From: a virus
IMG/VR virus record: IMGVR_UViG_3300020394_000646
Location: 1-40,166 of that record
Length of the DNA: 40,166 bases
Reading direction: 5' to 3' (one strand)
Shown here: positions 7,060-39,557 of the stretch, in pieces
Position numbering within the stretch: the first letter of the stretch is position 1
How the letters are laid out: each line of letters starts with the position of its first letter
Translations under genes and position numbers: made by a program
Notes under the pieces: generated by a model
What the model was told of the DNA's origin: nothing
Database searches by the model: none
What the model saw: the letters and a program-made list of their open reading frames with translations, nothing else

Positions 7060-8569
7060 TATTACAAAGTTATCATCAATGATGCCTTCTTCGGGGGAAG
7101 TAAACCAGAAGGTAAATCTTCTGCTGGATGCACAGGCACAGCAAGAGACTAATACAAATGTAGTATCAGCAAAGGTAACTTCCATGTTCTCCAATTTGGA
7201 CAGAATGGAAGAGAGTATGTCAGTTATAAGAAAGTCACTCAATAGAGATATAAGATCAAGAGAAAGATATTATAATGAAGAAGTAAAGTTACTAAAGAAA
7301 GAACTTAAGACTACAGAAAGTCTGAAGGGAAGTCTGATGAATGTAGCAGCACTTGTGGCTGGTGTTAGTTTAGCATCAGCGATGGGTAACTTTCAGCAAG
7401 GTAATTTTGGTGCTGGTGCAAGAGATCTAACTCTTGCCACAGGAGCAGCACTATCACAATATTTGCCTGAGGTTATAACAGGATCAGCGATTATAATATC
7501 ACAACTATTAGGTTTTGGTAAGAGAGGAGGAGTAAAACCACAAACTGGAATGAGAGCTGGTCTATCTCCTAGAGCTGGTGCTGGTAAATTAGGACTCTTG
7601 TTACCACTCCTTGGTTTGATGGGATTGGGAGCACTTGCTGGTAAAGGAGGAGACGGTGATGCTGATAAGGTAAGAGGAGAACTTGTAAGAAAGCAGTTAG
7701 TAACAGATCAAACCATAAACCAACCAGATGTAGACAGGTTCAAAACACAGTTAGAAAGATTTTCATTCCTGATTGACAGATTACAATCAGATAGAGTTGA
7801 TCGAGTAAGTCCTATCATACCTGGTGGTATTTCAACAAGTGCTGCTGATGGTACTAAAATAACATCTTCAGGGTTGTTCCCTAATTTGATGAAGAACAAT
7901 AGATTGATGGAGTTACAAAATCTTCTTCAAGATCAATCAGGTGGAAGTTTGGATCAAATAGGTGGAAAGACAGTTCCAGTTTCTGACATGACTCTAAGTG
8001 AAATCAATCAATTCCAAACTGATTTAGACCCAGATGCAGAATCTGGAGTCGGTTTGTTCAATATTGATGATCCATTGGGTGCTGTAGAAGAGATGTTTGA
8101 CGCAAAAGGTCTCAAGTTTGATGCTGATAAGATACTATTCACTGAACAATTGCAAAGAGAATTAGCATTATTTGAGATAAACAAGTCATTACCAGAAGGT
8201 CAAAAATTGTCTGCGACTGATTTGACACCATTTAAGAATATGGATGCGGAGAAATTAGGTGGATTCTTACAAGCAATGCCAAACATAAGACCAAATACAT
8301 CAGAAAATGAAGTATTTGATTTATCACCTCTCTTTGAAGAGATTATAAGTGAAGATGATGGAGAAGGGAGTGGTGAGGATAAAATCAGTTCTAATACATT
8401 TGTGATGCCAAATAATCAGAAAAACGTTGCGATGATAGACGGTAACGCATCATCTGCTAGTGTAACTGTATCAACAGATTATAGTTCAAATGATGGTGTT
8501 ACTATAGACAACTTCCACAACATTATTCAGTATGACTCACCAGCAATCTTCGGTGGAGTTACTGCATGA
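7052..8569 (+). CDS. Unrecognised baseplate-cluster protein with hydrophobic segments (505 aa)
   Basis: No family recognised. Residues about 50-85 are charged and likely coiled coil (RERYYNEEVKLLKKELK). They are followed by three hydrophobic, glycine/alanine-rich stretches: about 92-108 (NVAALVAGVSLASAMG), about 137-153 (EVITGSAIIISQLLGFG) and about 177-196 (LGLLLPLLGLMGLGALAGKG). The rest is acidic and mostly helical-looking, with a DxD-rich region near 440. It overlaps gp51 by 8 nt and the next gene by 4 nt, so it belongs to the hub operon. A coiled coil plus membrane-like segments between hub genes would suit a tape-measure or tail-lumen protein, a role otherwise unassigned here; this is inference. 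Confidence 0.6.
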   Translation: MADITKLSSMMPSSGEVNQKVNLLLDAQAQQETNTNVVSAKVTSMFSNLDRMEESMSVIRKSLNRDIRSRERYYNEEVKLLKKELKTTESLKGSLMNVAALVAGVSLASAMGNFQQGNFGAGARDLTLATGAALSQYLPEVITGSAIIISQLLGFGKRGGVKPQTGMRAGLSPRAGAGKLGLLLPLLGLMGLGALAGKGGDGDADKVRGELVRKQLVTDQTINQPDVDRFKTQLERFSFLIDRLQSDRVDRVSPIIPGGISTSAADGTKITSSGLFPNLMKNNRLMELQNLLQDQSGGSLDQIGGKTVPVSDMTLSEINQFQTDLDPDAESGVGLFNIDDPLGAVEEMFDAKGLKFDADKILFTEQLQRELALFEINKSLPEGQKLSATDLTPFKNMDAEKLGGFLQAMPNIRPNTSENEVFDLSPLFEEIISEDDGEGSGEDKISSNTFVMPNNQKNVAMIDGNASSASVTVSTDYSSNDGVTIDNFHNIIQYDSPAIFGGVTA

Positions 8570-10647
8570 GTAATTTTACAGCAACAACCAAGTTGATGCA
8601 AATAGGTAGTGAAAGAGAGTCACTACTCAGTCTTAGAAATTTAAAGATAAAATCTAGACTTCAAAAAGATAGAGAAGAACTAAACAAAGCGTTCAAGGAT
8701 AGGGCTGATAGGCAACAGCAAAGAAGACAAACAGGAGCTAATGCTTTACTTGGATTAGCTGGTGGTGGTGCTGGTATTGGTGTTATAAGAAGGTTTAGAC
8801 CTAGAAAACCTAGTCCAACTACAGGGGGTGGTACAAGAAGGTTCAAGATATTCAGAACTAAACCAACTATATCAAGTGGTGGAAGAGTCAATACAAATAT
8901 CTTAAGAAATGGATCAAAGCTAAATTCACTTCTGACAGTAGCATTTACTGGATATGATTTTTTAGATAGGAAGGCATCAGGTCAAACTAATGTACAGGCA
9001 GGGACTGGTGCTGTTGCCACAACAGGTGGTGCAATTGCTGGTGGAGCTGCGGGTGCAAAGTTAGGTGCACTCATAGGATCTTTTATTGTACCAGGTGCTG
9101 GAACGGTTGTTGGTGGTGCGTTAGGTGGTCTTTTAGGTTCTTTTATTGGTGCTACGTCAGGTGGTAACATTGCTGACTCTATAACAGGTGCAAATGAGGA
9201 GACTAGAAGGAAATTAGAACTGAAGAAAGTTGATTTGCAAAAAGGATCTACACTTTTTGGATCAGCACTTGACAAGTTTGATGTAGTCCTTGATAAATTT
9301 GAGAAACTTAGACAGGATGACTTTGATCGCACAAGAACAAGAGATAGTGATTTTGTTATTCCAGCAAGACAAGGTGGTTTAGGTGGTTTTATCAATAGGT
9401 TTGCTAGACCAAAACGACCTTTATCAGATACAGTTAGTGGAGATACTTCTAATGAAGTTGAATTTGACGTAGCAAATCCCAATCAAAAACCAAGAAATCT
9501 TAAGGAGACGCTTCAAAGGGATTTGTATATCCTAAAAAGAATTCCTTACGGAGAGATACTAAAAGAAAGTATATTACAAACTGGAAGAGATTTTGTAGAT
9601 TCATTTACAGATCCTGTCAATATTGCACTGTTCATATTATTGAGAGGTAGAGCAAAGGGATTCGGAAAGGGGTTTATACCAAAGAAAATGATCAATGTTA
9701 CTCCTGGTAGCACTGCTAATCCATTTCCAAATCTTGGTAGTAGTAAAATTGCAATACCAAATACAAGTAGTGGTAGCATTGTAAAACCAAATAATATACC
9801 ATTCTTTGTCAAACCTCAGTTTATCAACAAAAATGTAACTAGAACTATAGAAGTTAGAAGACAAATTCGTAGAATAAACTACAAGACTAATAAGGTACTG
9901 GATGACAATAGAAGAATAGTAAGACAGGTTAGAAGTAAGAAATTTTTAGTAGATAAGGTTGACATATATGATAAAGCCATAAGAAATTTGATGAAGTTCT
10001 CCAAAGAGATGTCAACAGAAGCAGCTAAGTTCAAAAATAATAAAGAATTGACCAATGCTTACTTCAAATCTCAAAGAAGAATATCAAGTCAAATTGAAAG
10101 ATATAGGAATAAAGTTACACAGATTTCATTACAAGAAATAGAACAAATGAGACAAGGTGAGGAAATAATCAATAAAACTGATATTGAGTATTCTAGATTT
10201 GAGTTGATGCAAAGTAATATGCTTAGAAAGATAGTAACTGGTGATCCAATGACTGATGCAGAGATGACACTTTATAGGTCATATAGAAATTTCTTAGAAA
10301 GGAGAGCAGCTGACCCCAAGTTCAAGGTAGATACTGAGATAATTGACTTCTTCAACTTAGGTCCTACAGATCTTCAAATCCCCTATCCTAAGGGTAAGGT
10401 CGTGCCTAAAAAGAAATTCCCGTTCTCGAAAAGTGATTTCGACATCCAAAAGTATTTCAATAGTCCACAATTCAAAAGGATAAAGAAATTCTATGAAAAG
10501 AGCAATCCAGTAAATACGAGTTTCAATGTACTTCAAGAAGGTAATCAAACAACTAATGTCTCAATTGATAATAGTAATACTATAGCAATGTTTGGTGGAG
10601 GTTCCTCAATAAATATGATGGAGATAAACGGGTATATGTCAGTATAA
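8566..10647 (+). CDS. Unrecognised baseplate-cluster protein with glycine-zipper region (693 aa)
   Basis: No family recognised. The N-terminus is basic and helical (KSRLQKDREELNKAFKDRADRQQ). Residues about 146-205 form a glycine-zipper-like, membrane-active stretch (AIAGGAAGAKLGALIGSF, then VVGGALGGLLGSFIGA). After a linker, residues about 410-540 are basic and predicted helical (RTIEVRRQIRRINYKTNK and onward). The C-terminus (NVSIDNSNTIAMFGGGSS) resembles that of the preceding 505-aa protein (TIDNFHNIIQYDSPAIFGG), suggesting the two are related or act together. It overlaps neighbours by 4 nt and 1 nt. A tape-measure or DNA-ejection role is possible but unproven. Confidence 0.6.
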   Translation: MSNFTATTKLMQIGSERESLLSLRNLKIKSRLQKDREELNKAFKDRADRQQQRRQTGANALLGLAGGGAGIGVIRRFRPRKPSPTTGGGTRRFKIFRTKPTISSGGRVNTNILRNGSKLNSLLTVAFTGYDFLDRKASGQTNVQAGTGAVATTGGAIAGGAAGAKLGALIGSFIVPGAGTVVGGALGGLLGSFIGATSGGNIADSITGANEETRRKLELKKVDLQKGSTLFGSALDKFDVVLDKFEKLRQDDFDRTRTRDSDFVIPARQGGLGGFINRFARPKRPLSDTVSGDTSNEVEFDVANPNQKPRNLKETLQRDLYILKRIPYGEILKESILQTGRDFVDSFTDPVNIALFILLRGRAKGFGKGFIPKKMINVTPGSTANPFPNLGSSKIAIPNTSSGSIVKPNNIPFFVKPQFINKNVTRTIEVRRQIRRINYKTNKVLDDNRRIVRQVRSKKFLVDKVDIYDKAIRNLMKFSKEMSTEAAKFKNNKELTNAYFKSQRRISSQIERYRNKVTQISLQEIEQMRQGEEIINKTDIEYSRFELMQSNMLRKIVTGDPMTDAEMTLYRSYRNFLERRAADPKFKVDTEIIDFFNLGPTDLQIPYPKGKVVPKKKFPFSKSDFDIQKYFNSPQFKRIKKFYEKSNPVNTSFNVLQEGNQTTNVSIDNSNTIAMFGGGSSINMMEINGYMSV

Positions 10648-11930
10648 TGTCAGAAGAAGTAACTGCTGGTTTATGGACAAGAAGTCACAAACTGATAAAG
10701 TTTGATGTGGCTGGAGATATTAAGGTGCCTGAGGAGACTAATGTAGCTCAATCTCTGATGGGACAGATGTTATTCTGTAAGTATTATGAGGGTTTTGGTA
10801 ATACTCTAATAGTAAAGATAACTTGTGTGGATACTAATGGTCTTTTAGATAAGTTACCTATAAGGACTGGAATGTCAGTTGAATTGTCATTCAGACATGC
10901 AAGTTTAGAAAACGAGGAGATTTTTGAATTTAGTCAGGCAAAGAAAAATAATCTAATCATAGTCAATATTGATAACGGAACTCATCAAGACAAGAGACAA
11001 ATGTACACTTTGACGTGCATTACTCCAACAACTCTGAGTAATCATACAACAAGAGTATCTAATAAGTACAAAGGTGCAATATCCAAGACAGTAGGGACGA
11101 TACTTACATCAATATTAGGTGCTGATCCGTCTAGACAGGTTGTAAAGCCAACTTCAAATACATATGATTTTTGTGGAAATTATACAAGACCTATCAACCT
11201 TATCAATAGACTAGCAACAAAATCAGTAACACCTAAGGCTGAAGAAGAATCACCTGAGAAAGGTTTATGTGGTTTTATGTTCTTTGAGACTCAAAAAACT
11301 GGATATAATTTTAGGTCTATACGGGAGATGATGGAAAAAGAATCTGACTTCCCAGTCTATGAAAAGGTTGGAGCTAAAGATGCAATGAATACTAATCCAT
11401 TCACACTTGCTTCAACACCAAAATTTAGAGAAAGTCAAGATCTCATCAAAAAACTTAGGGCGGGTCAATACCAAACTTCTAATATGGTGTATAATATAAT
11501 GGATAGAAATGTAAATTTCTACATTCATAAGTCGGAAACAGACGGTGAGGTTGCTAGTTCAGCTGATGAACAGGTATCTCGTCGTATACTAAGTGTTCTT
11601 GATCTTGGGTCAACGACTGCAAAAGACAATGAGTTAGCAGAACTTGCTACGAAAGTGACTTGGAGACAAGCACATGCTGCTTCACAGTATCAATTACTAT
11701 ACTCTCAAATGCTTGATGTCACCATTCCCATGAACTTGAATCTTGAAGTTGGTATGACACTAAACTTCAAATTTCCCGACCTAAATACTGGCGAAGGCAC
11801 CACTGCTGGCGTCACACCAAGTTCTGGTAAGTATCTTATCGCAAGATTATCACATGAGTTTGGTAATCCTGTGGGAGATTATACAGGACTTACACTTGTT
11901 AGAGAACACTATCTACCATACGAGGAATAA
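10647..11930 (+). CDS. 27: Baseplate hub subunit, gp27-like
   Basis: A 427-aa protein, close to T4 gp27 (391 aa), the trimeric hub ring that binds gp5 and connects to the tail tube. Features consistent with the hub family are the N-terminal beta-rich domain (MLFCKYYEGFGNTLIVKITCVD, shown in part), PIRTGMSVELSF, the second barrel-like part around YTLTCITPTTLSNH, and the C-terminal GMTLNFKFPDL followed by SGKYLIARLSHEFG, a strand pair typical of gp27/gpD-like hubs. Placement directly before gp5, as a hub partner should be, supports the call. Sequence similarity to T4 itself is too low to be sure by eye. Confidence 0.6.
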   Translation: MSEEVTAGLWTRSHKLIKFDVAGDIKVPEETNVAQSLMGQMLFCKYYEGFGNTLIVKITCVDTNGLLDKLPIRTGMSVELSFRHASLENEEIFEFSQAKKNNLIIVNIDNGTHQDKRQMYTLTCITPTTLSNHTTRVSNKYKGAISKTVGTILTSILGADPSRQVVKPTSNTYDFCGNYTRPINLINRLATKSVTPKAEEESPEKGLCGFMFFETQKTGYNFRSIREMMEKESDFPVYEKVGAKDAMNTNPFTLASTPKFRESQDLIKKLRAGQYQTSNMVYNIMDRNVNFYIHKSETDGEVASSADEQVSRRILSVLDLGSTTAKDNELAELATKVTWRQAHAASQYQLLYSQMLDVTIPMNLNLEVGMTLNFKFPDLNTGEGTTAGVTPSSGKYLIARLSHEFGNPVGDYTGLTLVREHYLPYEE

Positions 11931-27921: not shown

Positions 27922-30900
27922 ATGTCTAGGGCAAGAGAACTAGCCAAGGTTGGTGGAAAGAATCAACAAGTTGTGGCGGGTCTTTCCTCACACGTTGGTG
28001 TATCAACTTTTGCTTCTGATGTTTTTATGTACAGTAACCTTGAAGTTACTGGTACGACTACCTTCAACGGAGGCACACTAACTTTAGGGGATGCGAACAC
28101 TGATAATATTGTCTTTGGTGGTGAAGTAGATTCACATATTATTCCTGATGATGATGGCACATATAATTTAGGTTCAGCTACTAAAGAGTGGAACAACCTT
28201 TTCGTTGACGGTACTGCAAACATCGATGCATTACTGGCAGACACAGCAAAAATCGGAGACCTTACCGATAATAGGGTCGTTATCGCAGGTTCATCTGGGG
28301 AACTAGAGGACAGTGGTAATCTAACCTTTGATGGGTCAATCCTAACAACTACTAACATAGTAGTAACAGGAGACACAGATTTAGGAAATGCAACAAGTGA
28401 TACTATAACAGCAACAGGTCGTTTTGATAGTGACTTGACTCCTAGCACAGACGGAGCAAGAGACTTAGGACAATCTGATCTAGAATGGCAAGATTTATTC
28501 ATAGATGGTACTGCAAAGATTGACACACTAACTGTTGACGAGAATGCAACAGTAGCTGGAAACCTAACGGTTACTGGCAATGGCGTGATCAATGGTAACG
28601 TAGATCTAGGAAACGCAACGAGTGATACTATAACAGCAACAGGTCGTTTTGATAGTGACCTAGTTCCTAGCTCAGATAACGCTAGAGACTTAGGTGCTTC
28701 TGGTTTAGAATGGAAAGATTTATATATTGATGGCACAGCAAATATAGACACACTTGTAGCAGATACAGCAAAAGTATCTGACCTAACAGCAGGGAGAGTT
28801 GTCTTAGCTGGTACATCAGGAGAGATCGAAGATAGTGGTAATCTAACCTTTAGTAGTGGAGTCCTTACTACCACTGAGTTAGATGTGACTGGAGGAATAG
28901 TTATAACGGGAGGTTCCACATTATCACACGTGAATGCTTCGGGTGTTGGTACTATAACTCAGTTAGTATCCACAACTGCAACAGTTGGTGCTGGGCTTAC
29001 TGTTACTGGTGCGATAGACGGTAACGGTGGAGCAAACATCTCTGGAGCAGAGACAGTTCTATCTTCAGCAACAGTTAGTGACCTAACAAACAATCGTGTT
29101 GTTATAGCGGGTTCATCTGGTGCATTAGAAGATTCAGGCAACCTAACATTTGACGGTTCAACACTAACAGTCAATGGAAGTATTGATCTAAGTGGAAACA
29201 TAGATGTAGATGGCACTACAAACTTAGATGCTGTAGACATTGACGGTGCTGTTGACATGGCATCTTCCCTAACACTAGCAGGAAATGCTGACTTCAACGG
29301 AAACTTAGATGTAGATGGTACTTCTAATTTAGATGCTGTAGACATTGACGGTGCTGTTGACATGGCATCTACGCTAACTCTAGCAGGGAACGCTGATTTC
29401 AATGGAAACCTAGACGTTGATGGTACTACAAACTTAGATGCTGTTGATATAGATGGTGCGGTTGACATGGCATCATCATTGACATTGGCAGGAAATGCTG
29501 ACTTCAATGGAAACTTAGACGTTGATGGTACTACAAACTTAGATGGTACTAACATAGCTGGAGCTCTAGCGGTTTCAGGATCTGCAACTGTCGATAACTT
29601 ATCACTTGATGGTAATACTATTACAACATCATCTGGTAATCTTACGATAGACTCGAATGGTGGTACTACAACTATCAACGACAACGCTATCATTTCAGGT
29701 AACCTGACTGTAAATGGAACGACTACTACAATCAATTCTACTACGGTAAACATTGATGATAAGAACTTCCAAGTTGCTACAGGAGCTGCTGATGATGCAG
29801 CTGCTGACGGTGCAGGATTCACAGTTGACTCTGGAGACGGAGATAAAACATGGAACTTTGAAGCAACAGGCGATAACTGGGGTTCTTCAGAGAACATCAA
29901 CCTAGCATCAGGTAAGGTATTGAAGGTAAATAATACTTCAATATTGAGTGCTACAACACTTGGCTCATCTGTTGTATCATCATCACTAACAAGTCTTGGT
30001 ACTATAGGAACTGGTGTTTGGCAGGGAACTGCAATCAATGACACATACCTCGGAACAATCGACAATGCGAATAAGGTTTCCTTATCAGCGTTGAACATTG
30101 ACGGTGGTACAGATATTGGTGCTGCACTAGCAAACACTGACGAGATCATCGTTGATGATGGTGGTGGTGGAACCAATAGACGTTGTGATATGAGTAGAGT
30201 CAAGACATACATCTATGGTGCTATGTCTGGAGACGCTACCGCTTCATCAGGTGGTGCGGTTACACTTGCAAACTCAGGTGTATCTGCCGGAACAGTTGGT
30301 TCTTCAACTGCAATCCCAATCATTACTGTTGATGCTAAAGGTCGTGTAACAAACACCTCAACAACAGCAGTTGATAGCACAACAATCGCAAACGGTTCGG
30401 CATCAGTTGCAGTTGCAAGTAATGGCCCTATCACATCGACAGGAAACCATGACTTTACCGCAGGTATTGATGTTACTGGTAACATAACTGTATCTGGTAC
30501 AGTGGACGGTAGAGATGTAGCAAGTGATGGATCAAAATTAGACGGAATTGAAGCGGGGGCTACCGCAGATCAGACAGCATCGCAAATCTTGACACTTATC
30601 AAGACTGTTGACGGAGCTGGATCAGGTCTTGATGCTGATACTCTTGATGGTATCAGTTCTGCTTCCTTCTTAAGATCAGATGCTTCCGATACATTTACTG
30701 GTACGTTGACAGTTTCAGGTAATATATTACCAAACGCCAACGGTACTCGTGATTTAGGAGCATCGGGTACAAGATGGGCAAACGTCTACAGTTCTGACTT
30801 AGACTTATCCAACGAAGCCAAGGGTGGAAACACCATTGATGGCTCTTGGGGTTCTTACCTTATCGAAGAGGGTGAGGAACATCTTTATCTTACTAACAGA

Positions 30901-30942
30901 AGAAGTGGTAAGAAGTATAAGTTTATGCTAGAAGAAGTCTAG
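27922..30942 (+). CDS. Repeat-built tail fibre protein (1006 aa)
   Basis: An N-terminal cap (MSRARELAKVGGKNQQVVAG) precedes a shaft made of repeated beta modules. These include three copies of a roughly 30-residue module beginning DLTxxRVVxAGxSG, two copies of a DLGNATSDTITATGRFDSDL block, and three 35-residue tandem units (NLDVDGTTNLDAVDIDGAVD, then MASSLTLAGNADFNG). A SAGTVGSSTAIPIITVDAKG module near residue 790 recurs at the start of the next gene, DGRDVASDGSKLDGIEAGA lies near 860, and the final 73 residues match the end of the 627-aa fibre. Composition is Gly/Asp/Thr/Asn rich with almost no cysteine. A trimeric beta-structured long tail fibre is the best reading. Confidence 0.8.
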   Translation: MSRARELAKVGGKNQQVVAGLSSHVGVSTFASDVFMYSNLEVTGTTTFNGGTLTLGDANTDNIVFGGEVDSHIIPDDDGTYNLGSATKEWNNLFVDGTANIDALLADTAKIGDLTDNRVVIAGSSGELEDSGNLTFDGSILTTTNIVVTGDTDLGNATSDTITATGRFDSDLTPSTDGARDLGQSDLEWQDLFIDGTAKIDTLTVDENATVAGNLTVTGNGVINGNVDLGNATSDTITATGRFDSDLVPSSDNARDLGASGLEWKDLYIDGTANIDTLVADTAKVSDLTAGRVVLAGTSGEIEDSGNLTFSSGVLTTTELDVTGGIVITGGSTLSHVNASGVGTITQLVSTTATVGAGLTVTGAIDGNGGANISGAETVLSSATVSDLTNNRVVIAGSSGALEDSGNLTFDGSTLTVNGSIDLSGNIDVDGTTNLDAVDIDGAVDMASSLTLAGNADFNGNLDVDGTSNLDAVDIDGAVDMASTLTLAGNADFNGNLDVDGTTNLDAVDIDGAVDMASSLTLAGNADFNGNLDVDGTTNLDGTNIAGALAVSGSATVDNLSLDGNTITTSSGNLTIDSNGGTTTINDNAIISGNLTVNGTTTTINSTTVNIDDKNFQVATGAADDAAADGAGFTVDSGDGDKTWNFEATGDNWGSSENINLASGKVLKVNNTSILSATTLGSSVVSSSLTSLGTIGTGVWQGTAINDTYLGTIDNANKVSLSALNIDGGTDIGAALANTDEIIVDDGGGGTNRRCDMSRVKTYIYGAMSGDATASSGGAVTLANSGVSAGTVGSSTAIPIITVDAKGRVTNTSTTAVDSTTIANGSASVAVASNGPITSTGNHDFTAGIDVTGNITVSGTVDGRDVASDGSKLDGIEAGATADQTASQILTLIKTVDGAGSGLDADTLDGISSASFLRSDASDTFTGTLTVSGNILPNANGTRDLGASGTRWANVYSSDLDLSNEAKGGNTIDGSWGSYLIEEGEEHLYLTNRRSGKKYKFMLEEV
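28258..29169 (+). repeat. Three dispersed copies of a 30-residue fibre module
   Basis: Copies at 28258-28347, 28780-28869 and 29080-29169 all encode DLT-x-x-RVV-x-AG-x-SG-x-x-EDSGNLTF. A diverged fourth copy lies in the giant fibre gene at 21338. Confidence 0.8.
28382..28659 (+). repeat. 53-nt near-identical direct repeat pair
   Basis: Copies at 28382-28434 and 28607-28659 differ at only two bases by hand comparison, and encode LGNATSDTITATGRFDSD. High DNA identity compared with other modules suggests recent duplication or gene conversion. Confidence 0.85.
29197..29541 (+). repeat. Three 105-nt tandem repeats plus a partial fourth
   Basis: Units at 29197-29301, 29302-29406 and 29407-29511, then a partial unit to about 29541. 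Each encodes 35 residues with the period N-[IL]-DVDGT-x-NLDAVDIDGAVDMAS. Protein units are nearly identical while many third codon positions differ. Confidence 0.9.
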
Positions 30943-30983: not shown

Positions 30984-31796
30984 ATGGCTCTATACGGTAC
31001 TGGGTCAAACGTAAACCAAACAACCGACGTAAGTGCCGGTAACTACGGTTCTGCGTCAGCAGTTCCCATAATTACGGTTGATTCAGATAAAAGAATAAGT
31101 GCGATCAATACCGCAAGTATCGTTCTTGACGCTACGGTCAACGCTAACGCTAGTGTTGGAGACGTAGGTACATACGCATTCTTACAACAATCAGGTGCTG
31201 AGAACTCAGCAACTAACCCCGGCTCAACAGTAGCAGGGTCATCACTACGTTATAGTGATGCAACAGGAAGAAAATCAAACTCAGCACCTTCGGGTAACTG
31301 GCGTTGCATGGGTTATGATTCAGGTGCTGCACTCGTGAACTCAGGTTCAGGTACTGGTTCTGGTTCGGGTTCTGGTAACGTATCTGCTAACCCTAGTGGA
31401 AACTTATCGTTACAAGGTGGTAATGTTCAAGGTAACACCTCATTATCTTCGGGTAATATTCATGGTAACTTACAGGGTAACTTGCAAGGTGGTAATGTTC
31501 AAGGTAACACAAACGTAAACGTCGCTGGTAATATACAAGGTGGTAAAGGTGGTTCATATAACGTGAACCGAGGAGTTCCAACTGGACACTTAGCAGTTGG
31601 TGGTTCTGTAAACGTGGGTGGAGAAAACGTAGGTGTTGGTGGTAACGTAACAACTGAAAACTTAGCTGTTACTGGTAATATACCAACAGATAACTTGACA
31701 ATCAACGGTACTGCTTCTGTAAACGTCACAGTGAACTCAGTCACAGTCAACACAACTGTTGCTTACAGTTCTACTTTATGGTTACGTTACTCATAA
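30984..31796 (+). CDS. Gly/Asn-rich putative adhesin or fibre-tip protein (270 aa)
   Basis: Residues 1-50 (DVSAGNYGSASAVPIITVDS) share a module with the 1006-aa fibre just upstream. After a globular part with RCMGYDSG near residue 110, the protein turns extremely Gly/Asn/Ser rich. GSGTGSGSGSGNVS leads into irregular repeats such as GGNVQGNTSLSSGNIHGNLQ and GGKGG, then GGSVNVGGENVGVGGN and a Thr/Val/Asn beta-like end (NVTVNSVTVNTTVAYSS). No enzyme motif is seen. The composition recalls glycine-rich distal adhesins such as the T-even gp38 type, but no homology is claimed. It has its own late promoter and strong ribosome-binding site. A receptor-binding tip is the best inference. Confidence 0.6.
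   Translation: MALYGTGSNVNQTTDVSAGNYGSASAVPIITVDSDKRISAINTASIVLDATVNANASVGDVGTYAFLQQSGAENSATNPGSTVAGSSLRYSDATGRKSNSAPSGNWRCMGYDSGAALVNSGSGTGSGSGSGNVSANPSGNLSLQGGNVQGNTSLSSGNIHGNLQGNLQGGNVQGNTNVNVAGNIQGGKGGSYNVNRGVPTGHLAVGGSVNVGGENVGVGGNVTTENLAVTGNIPTDNLTINGTASVNVTVNSVTVNTTVAYSSTLWLRYS
31413..31510 (+). repeat. 26-nt perfect direct repeat in the adhesin gene
   Basis: Two identical 26-nt copies at 31413-31438 and 31485-31510, 72 nt (24 codons) apart, encode QGGNVQGNT. They keep the reading frame, so recombination between them would delete exactly 24 residues. Confidence 0.88.
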
Positions 31797-31799
31797 ATA
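31792..31799 (+). promoter_or_regulatory. T4-type late promoter (CATAAATA) with Shine-Dalgarno
   Basis: CATAAATA overlaps the adhesin stop codon. GGAGG at 31804-31808 precedes the ATG at 31820. Seven of eight bases match TATAAATA. Confidence 0.68.
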
Positions 31800-31819
31800 C
31801 TACGGAGGCATAAAAACAA

Positions 31820-32224
31820 ATGGCAACTAATTACGAAATAGCAGCAGCAAGAAATCCTAAGTGGTCAAATCCTGAGAAGAACATGATTGACTTGGAAGTT
31901 GATTTTGCTCCTCTTGACGAAGATTGGGTTCCTTATACTTGTTCTCCAACTGACGTTGTAGATCATTCGAGGACATTATATACAAATGCTTTAGCAGGGC
32001 AATATGGTACTATAGCAGATTATGAACATCATACGTTATGGACACCATACTACGAAGATAGTATTGAAGTTTCTACTGAAGGTTTAGTTCAGCTACTACT
32101 TGAGAAAGGAGTATTATCTGACGATGAAGTTGATAGTATATTGATAGAGAAAACAGAGCATGTAGGATATTATCGTACCACAACTGACGGTACAGACAGG
32201 CAATGGGGTGGTGGAATGGCGTAA
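31820..32224 (+). CDS. Fibre-associated small protein, possible fibre assembly factor (134 aa)
   Basis: Not firmly recognised. The central block EDWVPYTCSPTDVVDHSRTL followed by YTNALAGQYGTIADY resembles small proteins encoded after phage tail fibres that often serve in fibre assembly or as virion parts. The remainder is acidic, with a C-terminal helix (STEGLVQLLLEKGVLSDDEV) and the end DRQWGGGMA. It has its own late promoter and a strong GGAGG site, so it is a late gene made in quantity. It is the last gene of the fibre block. Confidence 0.55.
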   Translation: MATNYEIAAARNPKWSNPEKNMIDLEVDFAPLDEDWVPYTCSPTDVVDHSRTLYTNALAGQYGTIADYEHHTLWTPYYEDSIEVSTEGLVQLLLEKGVLSDDEVDSILIEKTEHVGYYRTTTDGTDRQWGGGMA

Positions 32225-32245: not shown

Positions 32246-33229
32246 ATGGCACAACAATCTGATAAATGGCATCATACCATGTCGAGGTATTTGGGTCAAA
32301 ACCCTGATACCTCGTTTTTATTTGGAATTTTACCTGGCGTATGTCGTGAAGCAATAGGTCGACCTGACTTCCTTTATACCAACCAGCAAGCATTTCGCAG
32401 CGATAAGGTTTATACATGGTCAAAACATCATCATGATAAGATAAAGAGTAATAGATTTACTAAAGTACAGAGTTATTATGGTACAGCACCATTTCTGTGG
32501 GAACTGGGCAGAGCTGCGATCCAAGCCCAGCAGCGAGAACCTGAAGGGTCGTTATTCTTTTTACCACGAGACGATCAAGTTACCATAAGAGACGAGTCTT
32601 ATAAAGAAGTAGAACAACTACTTCATGATGCTCCGAAGCCCAGATCCGTCCTGCTGCCGTGGCGGAAGTGTGATATATGGAAACAATGGGAACTTATTAA
32701 CATACCAGAGGATTATACTATGATACAAATGAGTAATCCTATCATACGACAAGAAACTCTTAGTAAGTTATTCCTGAAGCACCAGCACATCTACATTCCC
32801 TGGCCAGGCACTGACATATATTATGGTGGTTTCTTACAAAAAGATGTAATAATATACGATAACATAAAACAATATAGGACTAAACAAAAGCATGAAATGG
32901 AGCGAGAAATGGAAGTTGTGCTGAATCATCTGAAGTGGGGATATGATTATCTTACCAAGAAGCAAAAAGATTTCTTTGAGTGGACTTGCGGCTGGCAGCG
33001 GCTCGATCCAGGTGACAGATCACACATGGTCACTACATTTCTAGGACTTGATGTAATAAAGAGTCCTATAGTACTATTCAATGACTTACAACAACATGGA
33101 TTCTTAGAACCGGATCGAGTTTTTCACCAGCAGGAAAGTTGGGAACAAGCATACGAGTGGATATTATCCCATAAACCAAAGGATTATAGTATAACAACTG
33201 AAGGTAAAAGTATGTTTGAGTTACTCTAA
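32246..33229 (+). CDS. Putative GT-B-like glycosyltransferase or surface-carbohydrate protein (327 aa)
   Basis: No firm family hit by eye. The order of features fits GT-B-like surface-carbohydrate enzymes: YYGTAPFLWELGRAA, the strand SLFFLPRDDQ, PKPRSVLLPWRKCDIW, then IYIPWPGTDIYYGGFLQKDV followed by IIYD. The last block resembles the common 'SN-x-x-GT-x-x-FYA-x-x-LGKPVI' acceptor-domain pattern. The C-terminal third (residues about 205-320) is helical and Trp-rich. The gene starts 22 nt after the fibre-associated gene without a clear ribosome-binding site and overlaps the convergent SIS-HAD gene by 4 nt. Its place beside sugar-activation genes supports a carbohydrate role, but this is inference. 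Confidence 0.45.
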   Translation: MAQQSDKWHHTMSRYLGQNPDTSFLFGILPGVCREAIGRPDFLYTNQQAFRSDKVYTWSKHHHDKIKSNRFTKVQSYYGTAPFLWELGRAAIQAQQREPEGSLFFLPRDDQVTIRDESYKEVEQLLHDAPKPRSVLLPWRKCDIWKQWELINIPEDYTMIQMSNPIIRQETLSKLFLKHQHIYIPWPGTDIYYGGFLQKDVIIYDNIKQYRTKQKHEMEREMEVVLNHLKWGYDYLTKKQKDFFEWTCGWQRLDPGDRSHMVTTFLGLDVIKSPIVLFNDLQQHGFLEPDRVFHQQESWEQAYEWILSHKPKDYSITTEGKSMFELL

Positions 33230-34092
33230 TCTAAAAAATTATCACCTGCACCACGGTCATCAATATATTTGTTTGCTCTAGGTTTACCAAAGAACAACTT
33301 ATGGTACTTTACACCCCACTTCTTAAGTTGTGCTTCGGTTCTTGATCTGCAATGGTAATCGGCTTCGGCCTGCTGGGCTATAATATCCTGAGGATACCTT
33401 GAAGTACTATGAATGAACCCTCTTGCTGTCATAAGATATATTGTATAACCATTATCGTACCATTCATTTACTTTAGCAATTCTATCAAGTCGAGGAACTG
33501 CTGACCATGGACTACCATCATGAGGTTCAGTCAGTGTGCCATCTATATCAATACAATATATGTCATCTCTTTTTTCTGTTATATCATCATAAGTTGTTCC
33601 ATCACGTGACTCAACATTATGAGGCAACAACGGTAGTTCCCAGCCGCCAGCGGCTATCATCAAATATATTGCAGACAGAGCATTTATCTCAAACTCATGG
33701 TAATATAAACTGTTTATGGTAATAGTATCAAGAACAGGGTGTTCTTCTGGAGCAATGAGCAGTACGGGGACACCGACTCTTTCCAACGCCACCACCATAG
33801 GACTATTGATACGACAAGTAATACCTATAATAAGATCAGCATTTGTACAGGCATAATCTAACCAATTCTTCTTCCAGTCTCCATCTCCACCTAATGCTGT
33901 TGTATTGATAGCATCAGGAGCAAAACAAAATTTATTTGTATGACGATATATGTCACTCGCCATGTGTTGAGCAATCGCAAGATTACCACCATTACCAATC
34001 AAAGCAATACGATTTGATTTTTTTAGATAATTTGCTCCTAGTTGGATTCCCTTTGCATTTGTAGCAACCATTCTACCTCTTGTATGTGCCAT
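33226..34092 (-). CDS. SIS-domain (GmhA-like) fused to HAD phosphatase
   Basis: Residues about 10-165 look like a phosphosugar-isomerase SIS domain of the phosphoheptose isomerase type: IALIGNGGNLAIAQHMASDI, then INTTALGGDGDW and ADLIIGITCRINSP. Residues about 175-288 form a HAD phosphatase of the capsule-biosynthesis type: CIDIDGTLTEP (nucleophile DxD), IYLMTARG (motif II) and FFGKPRANKYIDDRG (motif III lysine and acidic pair). The SIS part departs from GmhA: GGS is GGN, the STSGNS loop is TCRINS, and the C-terminal histidines are not visible, so isomerase activity is doubtful. The start at 34092 overlaps kdsB by 55 nt; an in-frame ATG at 34071 is an alternative. Last gene of the minus operon. 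Confidence 0.72.
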   Translation of the reverse strand: MAHTRGRMVATNAKGIQLGANYLKKSNRIALIGNGGNLAIAQHMASDIYRHTNKFCFAPDAINTTALGGDGDWKKNWLDYACTNADLIIGITCRINSPMVVALERVGVPVLLIAPEEHPVLDTITINSLYYHEFEINALSAIYLMIAAGGWELPLLPHNVESRDGTTYDDITEKRDDIYCIDIDGTLTEPHDGSPWSAVPRLDRIAKVNEWYDNGYTIYLMTARGFIHSTSRYPQDIIAQQAEADYHCRSRTEAQLKKWGVKYHKLFFGKPRANKYIDDRGAGDNFLD

Positions 34093-34763
34093 GTACGATC
34101 AACTGCCCTTATCTTACCACATTTTAGGTCAAAAGGCACTACATCATATTTACCACAGAAACCAATAGTATCTAGACCTTTCCAATATTTCACAAATGTC
34201 ATGTCAAGATCAGGAAATGCTCTAATTGCATCTATCTTATAAAGATATAATCCTAGTTGAGTGACTATGTTATCACATACCACATCACATTTTCTTTGCA
34301 TGTGCATGACTCTATTATTATTTACTACCATCTTCACAACATCTTCATCATCTATCTCTCCATCTTCCAACACTCTTGATGACTGTAGTACATCAATATC
34401 ATGAGTGACACCATACTCTATCATTTCGTCTAACCATACAGGTTTCGTCAATGGTTCGTCTCCTTGAATATTGAAAACAAAATCGGTGTGTAGATTTTGT
34501 GCAACTTCTGCAACTCTATGAGTACATGTATAATGTTTACCAGTAATCACACCTGTATATCCTTCTTTGTCTACAAGATCACAGATAACTTCGTCCTCAG
34601 TAGCAATAAGAACTTCGTCTATAAATTTTGACTGCTTTGCTATATCTGCTACCATCAGCACCATTTCTCTGCCATTGATTTTCGCAAGAGGTTTTCCAGG
34701 AAATCTACCAGAGGACATTCGTGCAGGGATAACTGCGGTTATTCGTTTATTGTTGAAACTCAT
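34038..34763 (-). CDS. kdsB: CMP-KDO synthetase-like cytidylyltransferase
   Basis: A 241-aa protein matching 3-deoxy-manno-octulosonate cytidylyltransferase (KdsB), which activates KDO with CTP for lipopolysaccharide core synthesis. The nucleotide-binding start ITAVIPARMSSGRFPGKPLA is canonical, as are EVLIATEDEVI, the FVFNIQGDEPL block with the metal-binding aspartate, and LGLYLYKIDAI further on. The usual C-terminal VDTPEDL is replaced by VDRTWHIQEVEWL, so the second metal aspartate seems changed and the sugar substrate may differ. The length is typical. It shares a 4-nt overlap with the upstream gene and overlaps the SIS-HAD gene downstream. Confidence 0.8.
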   Translation of the reverse strand: MSFNNKRITAVIPARMSSGRFPGKPLAKINGREMVLMVADIAKQSKFIDEVLIATEDEVICDLVDKEGYTGVITGKHYTCTHRVAEVAQNLHTDFVFNIQGDEPLTKPVWLDEMIEYGVTHDIDVLQSSRVLEDGEIDDEDVVKMVVNNNRVMHMQRKCDVVCDNIVTQLGLYLYKIDAIRAFPDLDMTFVKYWKGLDTIGFCGKYDVVPFDLKCGKIRAVDRTWHIQEVEWLLQMQRESN

Positions 34764-35728
34764 GGTTTTATTTTAGCATCAAGACGGACATCTTTCAACT
34801 GTCTCACAGATATATATTCTTCTGCCATTCGTTTCAATTTTGACCAATTATTATAAGTCTTTTCATTCTTCAAATCCCAGTCAGGGTGCGTGTATTCGTG
34901 TGGTAATTCTGCTGTACAACCAAAGACAGCATAGTCATCTTTGTCGAGATTGAAATATTCGTATGGTATCTTGAGTTCTCTCAATCTATACTCTATATTC
35001 CTACCTTCATTTACTATGTCATCAAGATGTAACCACACTAAGTCTTTATGTCTTTTATAGGCATCAAACAAATCTTTGAATACTGTCGGTCTACCTGTTA
35101 TCTTGAATGCTCTTTTACCTGCTAACTTCTTATCAAAACATGCTAATTTGCTTATCATACTATCAAGAACATCTTCTTTATAAGGTACGAAATTTCTACT
35201 TTCACCTAAGAATTTTAGGGCATCACCATGAGGAACAATTCTTTTACCATTGATACACTCACGTTGAGTTGGAATACCAATAAATGGATATGGTGTCATT
35301 GCCATCTTTACTGTATCCCACTCTTCTATAAGATGAATCCAATTATTATCATCAAATAATTTTTTATTGAATGAGGGTAAGAATGTGAAATGTTTATCCT
35401 CTTTATGTTGTGCATATGGCATTACATCTACTTCTTTTATAGTATCTCTATGTTTTACTGGTCTATCATCAACGTAGTTGTAGCACTCTCCATATTCATA
35501 ATCTAGTCTATGAATTGCAGTCAAACTCTTACGTTTCTTTCTCATTTTTATCTCTCCTCTTTCGTCTTTGTAATATAATAATTCATACTCTACCTCTCCA
35601 TCATATTGTAAAACATTACATGAGTGACCAGACTCATTGAATCGTAATTGTTCTATACATGATGCTCTATGTATCATTTTCATGTGAAACTTACCCGCAT
35701 TGTAAGCACCCCAATAAATGTTTCTCAT
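34760..35728 (-). CDS. Unknown protein in the carbohydrate operon (322 aa)
   Basis: Not recognised. The N-terminal third is basic and Tyr/His rich (MRNIYWGAYNAGKFHMKMIH; CNVLQYDGEVEYELLYYKDE). The middle holds MTPYPFIGIPTQRECINGK and IVPHGDALKFLGESRNFVPY. The C-terminal half contains KITGRPTVFKDLFDAYKRH, VWLHLDDIVNEGRNIEYRL and IPYEYFNLDKDDY, which read like a globular enzyme. No catalytic signature can be named. It has 4-nt overlaps with both neighbours, so it is part of the SGNH-kdsB-SIS/HAD operon and probably works on the same surface sugar. A transferase of some kind would fit, but nothing proves it. Confidence 0.55.
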   Translation of the reverse strand: MRNIYWGAYNAGKFHMKMIHRASCIEQLRFNESGHSCNVLQYDGEVEYELLYYKDERGEIKMRKKRKSLTAIHRLDYEYGECYNYVDDRPVKHRDTIKEVDVMPYAQHKEDKHFTFLPSFNKKLFDDNNWIHLIEEWDTVKMAMTPYPFIGIPTQRECINGKRIVPHGDALKFLGESRNFVPYKEDVLDSMISKLACFDKKLAGKRAFKITGRPTVFKDLFDAYKRHKDLVWLHLDDIVNEGRNIEYRLRELKIPYEYFNLDKDDYAVFGCTAELPHEYTHPDWDLKNEKTYNNWSKLKRMAEEYISVRQLKDVRLDAKIKP

Positions 35729-36294
35729 TTGTAGATATATTCCTTCAATTTATTAGCAATAACTTGATGACCTTCTGGAGTAGGGTGTACACCATAAGTC
35801 CACATGTCAGGGTTATTGGTATCCCAAAAATCGTCTCCCATAAGCATATCTTTGTTCTTACATAGTTTACGATATTGTGAGTAAGTATCGTTTGCTCGTC
35901 CAATCTTCCAAAATAAGTAAGGTATCTTTCGTGATTCGAGATAGTTTTCCATAGCGTAAACATTCTTCCACAAGTTTCTAATACCTAATTGTTGTGTATA
36001 TATTTTATCGTAATAAAACTTCGTGATTTTGTCAAGTGCTTTTCCAGGTCTTATACTTATCCACTTCCCTGATCTCCACATACTAAATCGTGTATTCATA
36101 GTGAATTGTATAACTACAAAATCACATTCGTTATTCTCCAACCACTCTATTGATCTATCTACTATCAGGTCATTACATTGACCCCCTCGTCCTATATTTA
36201 CTACATCATCAGATAGAAATGTAGAGTATCTATCGTGTATGTTTTCTAGGCAAGCACCATAAGTAAAACTGCACCCATTACAAAAGATTTTCAT
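35725..36294 (-). CDS. SGNH/GDSL hydrolase-like protein
   Basis: A 189-aa protein with SGNH-hydrolase blocks: block I NGCSFTYGACLE with nucleophile S9, block II NIGRGGQCND with the oxyanion glycine, a block III-like FTMNTR, and block V YGVHPTPEGHQVIANKL with the catalytic histidine. The aspartate normally three residues before that histidine is replaced by tyrosine, so the triad looks incomplete and may use a dyad. Such enzymes often remove or add O-acetyl groups on glycans, which fits the sugar genes downstream. It is the first gene of the minus-strand operon and overlaps the next gene by 4 nt. Confidence 0.72.
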   Translation of the reverse strand: MKIFCNGCSFTYGACLENIHDRYSTFLSDDVVNIGRGGQCNDLIVDRSIEWLENNECDFVVIQFTMNTRFSMWRSGKWISIRPGKALDKITKFYYDKIYTQQLGIRNLWKNVYAMENYLESRKIPYLFWKIGRANDTYSQYRKLCKNKDMLMGDDFWDTNNPDMWTYGVHPTPEGHQVIANKLKEYIYK

Positions 36295-36327: not shown

Positions 36328-36849
36328 GTGAATATTCTATCACAAAAGAATACTAAAACATTATGGCACATGGCATTTACCATACCCGATATAGATGAGG
36401 GTATTCGTTGGTATTGTGATGTGTTGGGGTGTCTGTTTTGCCAACGGTTCACTATCTCAACTGAAGATAATGGTAGGTCTAGCGGTTTCATAATGTCAAT
36501 GGCAGGGCATCACATATCTGTCTTAGAGGGTGCAACATCAGTTCCACAACCTAACTCAAGATTACCAAGACACAACGGTCTAGTATTCTTAGATAGACAG
36601 GAATACTTTGATCTCATCAAGCATTGCAAAGAACACCCTGAGATCAATGTAATTGACTCTAAGTACAATTTTCTTATACCTAAGAAGATTAGACCAGAAG
36701 AAGCACACTTGCATGGTCAGAATGTAAGATGTCACAGAACCACCATAAAAGACCCCTTTGACAACTGGATAGAATTCAAGTATTATTCATACGAGAATGA
36801 AATACACTCACAGAATTTACATCAACTAAGGAAACATGGGTCAGACTAA
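36328..36849 (+). CDS. VOC (glyoxalase/dioxygenase superfamily) protein
   Basis: A 173-aa protein with the paired beta-alpha-beta-beta-beta pattern of vicinal oxygen chelate proteins. The first module starts LWHMAFTIPDIDEGIRWYCD then VLGC, with H14 as a likely metal ligand; HNGLVFLD near residue 82 and IKDPFDNWIEFKYY near 140-152 (E149) supply the others. The GTG at 36328 is chosen because the first in-frame ATG (36370) would remove H14; there is no obvious ribosome-binding site. It runs divergently from the carbohydrate operon and overlaps the next gene by 14 nt. Activity (lyase, extradiol dioxygenase or resistance protein) cannot be told. Confidence 0.72.
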   Translation: MNILSQKNTKTLWHMAFTIPDIDEGIRWYCDVLGCLFCQRFTISTEDNGRSSGFIMSMAGHHISVLEGATSVPQPNSRLPRHNGLVFLDRQEYFDLIKHCKEHPEINVIDSKYNFLIPKKIRPEEAHLHGQNVRCHRTTIKDPFDNWIEFKYYSYENEIHSQNLHQLRKHGSD

Positions 36850-37289: not shown

Positions 37290-39557
37290 ATGACTGTCAA
37301 CATTGAAATCAAAGGCAACCTTGCTAAACTACTTGCGACAGAGAATCTATTGATCGAGCATAAGAATGTCGAAACAGCATCATTTGATGTTGAGCGTAGA
37401 GTTCTTACACTACCACAATGGAAGATCGACAGCGAACATGTATATGACATGCTAGTAGCACATGAGGTTGGTCACGCATTACATACACCTAACCGTAACT
37501 ATAAGTTAGAGGATAAGTATAAGGACATTCCACATGACTATGTAAATGTTGTGGAAGATGCTCGAATTGAGAAGTTGATGAAGCAAAGATTTGCAGGATT
37601 GAACAAAGACTTCTACAAAGGATACGAGGAGTTACATTCTATCAATTTCTTTGAGGTAGATGATACTGAGATCAATGACCTAAAACTTATTGATAGAGTC
37701 AATCTATATTTCAAGATCGGTGCATATCTTTGCATAGATTTCAATGACGAGGAGAATCAACTCATTACTGAAATCACTCAAGCAAATACATTTGATGAGG
37801 TTCTTGATCTATCACTCAAGTTGTTCAAGTTAGGCAAAGATCAAAAAGAATCAATCGACACTATGCTATCAGCAAAACTTGTCTCAAATGAGAAAGGTGC
37901 TATCAATGGCATGTCAGTAAACATGAGTCTTGATAATTCTCAAGATGACTCAAATAAGACTGATGATGAGGAAAATGGTCAGGTACAAACACCCTCTAAC
38001 GGTGCTGAAAATGGCGAAGATTCAAATGTATCATCTAAGTCTCAACTTGAGACACCAGTAGAGGACAAGAGTGAGGACGAGATAGATGACGAGACACTTG
38101 CTCTACAAGATAAAGCAGGTAATCATAACAACATTGAGACGTCAGACACACAGAAATCATTTGACGGAAATGTTCAGAGCAAACTCAATGATGATGAAGC
38201 AAGAGAAACCAACTATGTAACTGTACCAGAATTGAACCTTGCTTCAGTAGTAGTTGAGTTCGATCTCATTAGAGATAAACTAAACAGACACTTCATCACT
38301 AAGAATGATATTAGCGAAAATCATGTAGACTATTTCACTAAGTGTGTTGATGCTGAGATCAAGAGATATGTTGAGCATAAGAACAAATCTCGCAAAGATG
38401 TCAATAATCTTGTAAAAGAGTTTGAAATGAAGAAATCAGCAGACTCATACTCAAGACAGGCAACATCAAGGACAGGTATGCTTGACATGAACAAGTTACA
38501 CACATACAAGTATAACGAGGACATATTCAAGAAAGTTACCACTATACCAGAAGGCAAGAATCATGGTCTTGTATTCCTACTAGACTGGTCTGGTTCAATG
38601 CACTATCAGTTGAATGATACAGTAAAACAACTATTCAATCTTGTATGGTTCTGTCGTAAGGTTTCTATACCATTTGAAGTATATGCTTTTACAAATGACT
38701 CATACAGACTGAAACCCAACTATAAGCAAGATCACTACGGTTATGACTCACATAAGTTACATCAAACAGAGAAACATGGAGATTTGCTTATAGAAGGTGG
38801 TTTCCGTATGGTTCAGATACTTACATCAAGTGCAAGATCAAAGGAGTTAGATGAAATGATGAAGTTACTATGGTTACAGACTCATGCTATCTCTAGTCAT
38901 GATTTCACACCAGAATGTGACTTCAGATTATCAGGTACACCACTCAATGAAGCAATTATAGCAAGTGGTCAGATTATCAAGAGACTCATCAAAAGAGAGA
39001 AACTACAAAAATGCCATTGTGTAATCTTGACTGACGGAGAGGGATTTCATTCCAGTTATGTTGAGTATGGTTCTAACTGGGATAACGAGAACCACACTAG
39101 AATAGTTGATAAGACTAAATTCTGTGGTAGAAATGTTTATCCCTCTGAGACAGTAATAAGAAAGGGTGCTAGAACATTCACAGGTGGTCACAATGAGTCA
39201 GAGTTCACATGTAGTTTACTCAATGCTGTAAAGTCAGACCTACCTAACACACAATTCTTAGGTATCAGAATACTTGAAAGAGATTACTATGGTTTCTACA
39301 TGAGATATGCAAGAAAGGCATTTGACTCTTTCGAGGAAATGAAGAAACAAAACAAGAAAAATGGATTGATTGATTTTACTACAGATACTTTCGATCATTG
39401 GTTCTGTTTATCAGGTAACAAACTCAGAGCAAGTGATGAGTTAGAGGTCAAAGAGGGTGCTGTAAAGCGTGACATATCAACCGCTTTCAAGAGAATGAAC
39501 AGAGGTAAAAAGACCAACAGAGTCATGGTAAAACAATTCATCAATCAAATTGCTTGA
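37290..39557 (+). CDS. cobT: CobT-like protein: zinc-metallopeptidase motif plus VWA domain
   Basis: A 755-aa protein of the type annotated in cyanophages as peptidase or CobT-like. Residues 58-62 are HEVGH (HExxH zinc motif), and NVVEDARIEKL at 86-96 gives E89 as likely third zinc ligand. Residues about 205-305 are an acidic, low-complexity linker (TDDEENGQVQ, DKSEDEIDDETLAL). The C-terminal half is a von Willebrand A domain with the metal site DWSGSM at 432-437 and CVILTDGEG further on. This is the pairing of a MoxR-type AAA+ ATPase (CobS, downstream) with a VWA partner. Cobalt insertion into corrin is the bacterial CobNST role; the intact protease-like motif suggests a chaperone or protease function here. 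Its TATAAT box is upstream. Confidence 0.82.
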   Translation: MTVNIEIKGNLAKLLATENLLIEHKNVETASFDVERRVLTLPQWKIDSEHVYDMLVAHEVGHALHTPNRNYKLEDKYKDIPHDYVNVVEDARIEKLMKQRFAGLNKDFYKGYEELHSINFFEVDDTEINDLKLIDRVNLYFKIGAYLCIDFNDEENQLITEITQANTFDEVLDLSLKLFKLGKDQKESIDTMLSAKLVSNEKGAINGMSVNMSLDNSQDDSNKTDDEENGQVQTPSNGAENGEDSNVSSKSQLETPVEDKSEDEIDDETLALQDKAGNHNNIETSDTQKSFDGNVQSKLNDDEARETNYVTVPELNLASVVVEFDLIRDKLNRHFITKNDISENHVDYFTKCVDAEIKRYVEHKNKSRKDVNNLVKEFEMKKSADSYSRQATSRTGMLDMNKLHTYKYNEDIFKKVTTIPEGKNHGLVFLLDWSGSMHYQLNDTVKQLFNLVWFCRKVSIPFEVYAFTNDSYRLKPNYKQDHYGYDSHKLHQTEKHGDLLIEGGFRMVQILTSSARSKELDEMMKLLWLQTHAISSHDFTPECDFRLSGTPLNEAIIASGQIIKRLIKREKLQKCHCVILTDGEGFHSSYVEYGSNWDNENHTRIVDKTKFCGRNVYPSETVIRKGARTFTGGHNESEFTCSLLNAVKSDLPNTQFLGIRILERDYYGFYMRYARKAFDSFEEMKKQNKKNGLIDFTTDTFDHWFCLSGNKLRASDELEVKEGAVKRDISTAFKRMNRGKKTNRVMVKQFINQIA

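Follow-up and report, generated by a model that had tools for sequence, protein, structure and literature searches.

A conserved candidate sugar-activation module beside the tail-fibre genes of psbA-carrying T4-like cyanophages

Gene content and conservation of the locus

The IMG/VR virus record IMGVR_UViG_3300020394_000646, analysed here as one stretch of 40,166 nucleotides (the window), contains T4-like genes for a single-strand DNA-binding protein, tail tube, baseplate and tail-fibre proteins, and is a fragment of a psbA-carrying T4-like cyanophage of the ocean. Beside its tail-fibre genes lie four minus-strand genes, encoding an SGNH/GDSL-like protein, a protein designated U322, a predicted KdsB-like cytidylyltransferase and a fusion of SIS and HAD domains, which face a plus-strand gene, O327, for a putative GT-B-like glycosyltransferase. 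The four open reading frames (ORFs) were verified at positions 33226-36294, with overlaps of 55, 4 and 4 nucleotides between neighbours, as an earlier note on this DNA had reported; the stop codon of the SIS-HAD gene also overlaps that of O327 by 4 nucleotides, making the two a convergent pair.

Scans of IMG/VR recovered 38 loci with SIS-HAD as the query, 19 with KdsB and 47 with O327. One contig of 132.9 kb (G001) was nearly identical across the module (98-100% protein identity), and across 23-25 contigs identity to the window protein ranged from 53 to 96% for KdsB, 46 to 95% for SIS(-HAD) and 41 to 88% for O327; such conservation at the protein level excludes chance ORFs. About 40 IMG/VR contigs carry, next to their tail-fibre genes, a core of KdsB-like, SIS and HAD genes convergent with O327. 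Nearly all loci that were long enough (the short contigs are truncated) shared one arrangement, namely tail fibre, O270, O134 and O327 facing SIS, HAD and KdsB, with a phrog_459 gene beyond. The exceptions were L068, without HAD between SIS and O327, and L055, in which O327 and the module stand on one strand in another order. Our literature search found no description of this module.

The earlier note had read these genes as a compact module that makes or alters a surface sugar, and had named conserved synteny among its checks. A compact sugar-activation module, in which a synthetase-like enzyme for a cytidine monophosphate (CMP)-activated sugar and a SIS-HAD fusion face a GT-B-like gene, is supported: the core neighbours are conserved together in many related phages. 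The four minus-strand genes, however, are not conserved as a single block. SGNH and U322 are patchily distributed extras, both absent from the near relative L043 and missing from many relatives that retain KdsB, SIS, HAD and O327. At their position many relatives carry other cargo (one to six U322 paralogues, a nucleoside diphosphate (NDP)-sugar dehydrogenase, an oxidoreductase, an aminotransferase or a carbamoyltransferase), and we take SGNH and U322 to be strain-specific decorating enzymes. One core-bearing contig, represented by both L073 and L084, also has an HpcH/HpaI aldolase.

SIS and HAD, fused in the window, are two genes in most relatives. On the O327 tree the fused state requires three changes, and well-supported branches compel at least two of them; the domains have thus been joined or separated repeatedly. 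In some relatives a DUF3310 gene is inserted between the two (L015:2393-2599, L024:3508-3714, L025:3397-3624 and L059:3416-3622; Pfam recognised one, and visual comparison showed the rest to be nearly identical).

Predicted activities of the encoded proteins

The KdsB-like protein matched KdsB structures with E-values down to 1.8e-18, while scoring below every kdsB cut-off (91.3 bits against 155.2 for TIGR00466; 134.7 against 255 for PRK13368, E-value 3e-39). R10, S13, R15, K19, R78, D100 and D235 (E. coli numbering) are retained in 23 of 23 phage proteins; residues of this kind bind cytidine triphosphate (CTP) and magnesium in KdsB (PMC3149649). R157, Y185 and Q98 are retained as well. Changes occur at positions nearly fixed in 74 bacterial KdsB relatives (G75C, H181Q, E210D, Q211T and R213G), those of the C-terminal pocket being H181 to Q in 21 of the 23 phage proteins, E210 to D in 23, Q211 to T in 22 and R213 to G in 23. 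G75C, H181Q and E210D were seen in 0, 1 and 0 of the 74 bacterial sequences, respectively, and are shared with the phage proteins by the KdsB of a Prochlorococcus-sized genome (G197). H181 and E210 are presumably KDO (3-deoxy-D-manno-octulosonic acid) contacts. The pattern of residues suggests an enzyme with retained CTP chemistry and a changed sugar pocket. A scan of bacterial genomes with KdsB gave ordinary distant KdsB only.

In the HAD domain all four catalytic motifs (DxD, T, K and DD) are present, as DIDGT at residue 182, TARG at 222, GKP at 269 and IDDRG at 277. Its score against the EcbF/BcbF profile TIGR01689 was 15.6 bits (cut-off 162), and it is distantly like polynucleotide kinase phosphatases (phrog_415, 3e-6). 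In phrog_1238 and in cyanophage records (e.g. L003:11989-12333) this HAD is labelled 'phosphoheptose isomerase'; as the domain contains no SIS part, the PHROG label is incorrect for it.

The SIS domain was detected by Pfam only at 0.018, fell under all gmhA cut-offs, and gave sequence-based profile matches to a GmhA structure (Table 1) and to DiaA (7e-3). H61, E65, Q172 and H180 are catalytic or metal residues of GmhA; aligned with the E. coli protein, these positions read H, D, E and Y, invariantly, in 25 phages; in the numbering of the phage domain the invariant residues are H43, D47, E135, Y143 and R94. The domain is strongly constrained, yet it is no standard GmhA.

The AlphaFold model of O327 (predicted local distance difference test, pLDDT, 90) had mostly GT-B proteins as its top Foldseek matches in the PDB (Gtf3 at 5e-3, TarL, PglA and GtfC), with TM-scores of about 0.2-0.37 and E-values of 5e-3 or weaker, which points to a putative GT-B-like glycosyltransferase.

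U322 gave nothing in domain and profile searches, and its model (pLDDT 80) had no convincing structural relative, the best PDB match being the Stf0 sulfotransferase (E-value 0.24). A sulfotransferase reading, suggested by that match and a motif resemblance, was not supported: hhalign to phage sulfotransferase-like proteins gave 0.1%, and neither a profile search of PDB sequences nor viral structures lent support. The family, which has no known relative, carries a conserved C-terminal IPYxxFxLDxDDY motif and is strongly expanded in some phages to as many as six very divergent copies between phrog_459 and SIS (L074:3106-9019; L056; L024; L113). In the SGNH-like protein the Ser and His blocks (GCSFTYG and HPT) of the Ser-Asp-His triad are present and the Asp of DxxH is Tyr.

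Table 1 Features of the window and of host-type loci considered in this work
Feature	Position	Strand	Basis or remark
O327, putative GT-B-like glycosyltransferase	32246..33229	+	Final gene of tail-fibre run
SIS-HAD fusion, 288 aa	33226..34092	-	Domain profiles; SIS and HAD separate genes in most relatives
SIS domain, GmhA/DiaA-like, altered active site	33613..34059	-	GmhA 5i01 profile match 6e-4; alignment with E. coli GmhA
HAD phosphatase domain	33238..33573	-	phrog_1238 1.2e-18; capsule biosynthesis protein 9iqw 3.5e-10; 1xpj 2e-8; motif positions
KdsB-like CTP-dependent sugar-acid cytidylyltransferase (predicted), 241 aa	34038..34763	-	Pfam CTP_transf_3 1e-24
U322, uncharacterised alpha/beta protein, 322 aa	34760..35728	-	Relatives hold as many as 6 members of the family
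SGNH/GDSL-like protein, possible glycan esterase, 189 aa	35725..36294	-	Lipase_GDSL_2 3.9e-4, under Pfam cut-off
Landmarks O270 and O134, genes of the tail-fibre region preceding O327	30984..32224	+	O134 phrog_1795/1141 tail fiber 9e-12; order conserved
phrog_459 'peptidase', conserved right landmark	37290..39557	+	8.9e-226; 463 phage records, mostly cyanophages
KdsB-like, aldolase and HAD loci in KdsA-less genomes	L228:8036-11064, L230:7257-9448, L233:8640-10116, L234:7127-9417

Host type and genomic contexts of related genes

Because psbA is present in G001, and psbA together with psbD in G002, G003 and G007, these relatives are cyanophages. Eleven cyanobacterial genomes of 1.6-1.8 Mb have a psbA that shares 92-95% identity with the one in G001; these genomes, judging from psbA and genome size, we read as Prochlorococcus, the likely host type of the phage. 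SAR11 had been raised as a host by a resemblance to pelagimyophages and was dropped on finding psbA and psbD; a single-cell relative, AG-345, comes from a sort of extracellular particles and is uninformative on the host (PMC6122165). No match to KdsA (TIGR01362) was obtained in the eleven genomes with the closest psbA; KdsA does occur in certain larger genomes, of Synechococcus size, whose psbA is more distant. A review reports KDO and heptose to be absent from cyanobacterial lipopolysaccharide (LPS; PMC4390846).

In four KdsA-less genomes of Prochlorococcus size (G197, G257, G199 and G243; Table 1), a KdsB-like gene adjoins a pyruvate-type aldolase (HpcH/HpaI or HMGL-like) and an HAD_2 phosphatase, G197 having the row HAD, HpcH/HpaI, KdsB. 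Pyruvate-type aldolases form 2-keto-3-deoxy acids from pyruvate; this would account for the presence of a KdsB-type enzyme where KdsA is missing. A further genome of this size, G203, has two fusions of the phage-type HAD, one to a cytidylyltransferase (L232:8837-9901) and the other, in a second gene, to SIS (L232:15237-16157). Each fusion lies beside a different NeuB gene, which precedes it, and in the second the order of HAD and SIS is the reverse of that in the phage.

The phrog_1238 HAD occurs near ulosonate genes in other phages too, in the rows NeuA-NeuB-HAD (L040), NeuA-x-NeuB-HAD (L031), cytidylyltransferase-HpcH aldolase-x-HAD (L029) and HAD-x-KdsA-like-PseF-like (L039). The same HAD adjoins heptose-type genes in L027, L034, L038 and P-SSM2. 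The L039 row (7359-10724) belongs to a 459-kb viral contig, where the HAD domain, the KdsA-like gene and a PseF/KdsB-like gene lie close together.

Other features near the module

The exact sequence TATAAATA, sought as a late promoter, was not found upstream of the module; sites with one mismatch occur nearby and are uninformative. A glyoxalase-like gene (36328-36849), divergent from SGNH, is conserved next to the module in some members of the clade. On the tail-fibre side, a tail-fibre-like protein with imperfect internal repeats is encoded at 27922-30942, with long, probably spurious ORFs antisense to it at 27963-28919 and 28959-30212.

Interpretation and alternatives

Our preferred interpretation, held with middling confidence, is that the core (SIS, HAD, KdsB-like and O327) constitutes a phage-borne module for making and using a CMP-activated 3-deoxy-2-ulosonic acid, KDO-like and probably not KDO itself, since the KDO-making enzyme, KdsA, is missing from both the phage and its likely Prochlorococcus host. 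The CMP-ulosonate chemistry as such is moderately supported. In favour of this interpretation are the CTP and magnesium residues kept by the KdsB-like protein, the proximity of the HAD family to ulosonate genes in other phages and in G203, the recurrent SIS-HAD fusion, the KdsB-like genes next to aldolases and HAD_2 phosphatases in four KdsA-less genomes, the three pocket changes shared with G197, and the psbA that ties the phage to this host type. The host would supply a phosphorylated or free ulosonic acid, or a sugar-phosphate precursor, through its own NeuB or pyruvate-aldolase pathways; the SIS domain would bind or isomerise the sugar phosphate, the HAD domain would remove the phosphate, and the KdsB-like enzyme would then use CTP and magnesium to link the dephosphorylated acid to CMP. 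O327, GT-B-like and constant beside the module, is likely to be the transferase of the last step, and would pass the activated sugar to an acceptor on the host envelope or on the phage's own fibres. More tentatively, streamlined Prochlorococcus and their T4-like phages may share a KdsA-independent route, whereby a host pyruvate-type aldolase makes the acid and the phage SIS, HAD, KdsB-like enzyme and transferase divert the sugar onto a chosen surface.

The earlier note had called the product KDO/heptose-like, a description that now looks too specific and is disfavoured. A true CMP-KDO module, with SIS, HAD and KdsB replacing KdsD, KdsC and KdsB and boosting KDO for host LPS or capsule, would fit an enzyme set that parallels three of the four KDO-pathway steps, the clear KdsB match, and the HAD relative near a KdsA-like gene in a large-genome phage. 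We nevertheless consider it quite improbable, given that KdsA (KDO-8-phosphate synthase) was not found in the phage or the eleven closest-psbA genomes, that cyanobacterial LPS reportedly lacks KDO (PMC4390846), that KdsB carries H181Q, E210D and other changes in the presumed KDO pocket, and that SIS is GmhA-like, not KdsD-like. The closeness of SIS to GmhA, and the occurrence of the same HAD alongside kinase and nucleotidyltransferase genes of heptose type in P-SSM2, L027, L034 and L038, would instead suit a heptose module in which SIS and HAD act as GmhA and GmhB, and the cytidylyltransferase activates heptose or a heptose-derived sugar. This too is unlikely: no heptose kinase or nucleotidyltransferase for adenosine diphosphate (ADP)-heptose is found among the module genes, the SIS domain has lost the catalytic His180 and lies under all gmhA cut-offs, and KdsB-type enzymes act on ulosonic acids, not aldoses.

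The same chemistry might serve to decorate the phage's own tail fibres instead of the host surface, a possibility we rate below even. All across the clade the module abuts the tail-fibre genes, whose strand O327 shares and which it directly succeeds; similar genes in the pelagimyophage host-recognition island have, on the other hand, been read as host-surface modification (PMC7029224). A role in nucleotide or DNA hypermodification, which the distant resemblance of HAD to polynucleotide kinase phosphatases and the occasional DUF3310 insertion could suggest, is very remote, HAD being closer to the capsule biosynthesis protein and having many sugar genes around it (those for NDP-sugar dehydrogenase, carbamoyltransferase, NeuB and a KdsA-like protein).

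Several observations weigh against the ulosonate module that we prefer. The equivalent of GmhA His180 is Tyr in 25 of 25 phage SIS domains, and the domain may not be an isomerase; both its assignment and that of O327 to GT-B are supported by weak scores. Searches of 13 related phage contigs, which may be incomplete, gave no KdsA/DAHP-type synthase (PF00793; DAHP, 3-deoxy-D-arabino-heptulosonate 7-phosphate) and no NeuB, and the host aldolases had no relatives in the parts of G001, G002, G003 and G005 that were searched, leaving the pathway incomplete in the phage. The host assignment draws on genome size and on psbA, a gene that can pass from one lineage to another.

A change of the host surface or exclusion of superinfecting phages, as suggested by the earlier note and proposed for similar islands (PMC7029224), would be a plausible benefit of the module. 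Cyanobacterial envelopes reportedly lack KDO, yet these phages conserve a KDO-type activating enzyme beside host-recognition genes. If the ulosonate interpretation is correct, the most abundant photosynthetic cells, or else the phage fibres, would bear an undescribed acidic sugar, with consequences for how phages recognise or guard these cells.

Comparison with known systems

Genes for surface sugars next to tail fibres are already familiar from phages (PMC7029224); what is unusual here is that they occur without KdsA. With KdsB (TIGR00466/PRK13368) the phage enzyme shares the fold, the CTP loop, the QGDEPL motif and both magnesium-binding Asp residues, but it differs in its sub-cut-off scores, its altered pocket and the lack of a KdsA partner. 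The SIS domain resembles GmhA (SIS_2 family) in its GNGG loop, its H61 equivalent and general fold, whereas E65 is replaced by D, Q172 by E, H180 by Y and the STSGNS loop by TCRxxS, and it is often fused to HAD. The HAD domain has the motifs of the EcbF/BcbF capsule phosphatases and phrog_1238 and clear homology to 9iqw and 1xpj, but lies far under the TIGR01689 cut-off. Like the pelagimyophage host recognition cluster (PMC7029224), the locus adjoins tail fibres and forms a hypervariable island in which sugar genes of LPS type occur together with glycosyltransferases; here, however, the carriers are psbA-bearing cyanophages with a fixed KdsB/SIS/HAD/O327 core (the terms KdsB and cytidylyltransferase were not found in that article). 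The sugar-nucleotide cluster of P-SSM2 (PSSM2_308-313) contains a homologous HAD, 43% identical, but has a heptose-type kinase and nucleotidyltransferase in place of KdsB and SIS.

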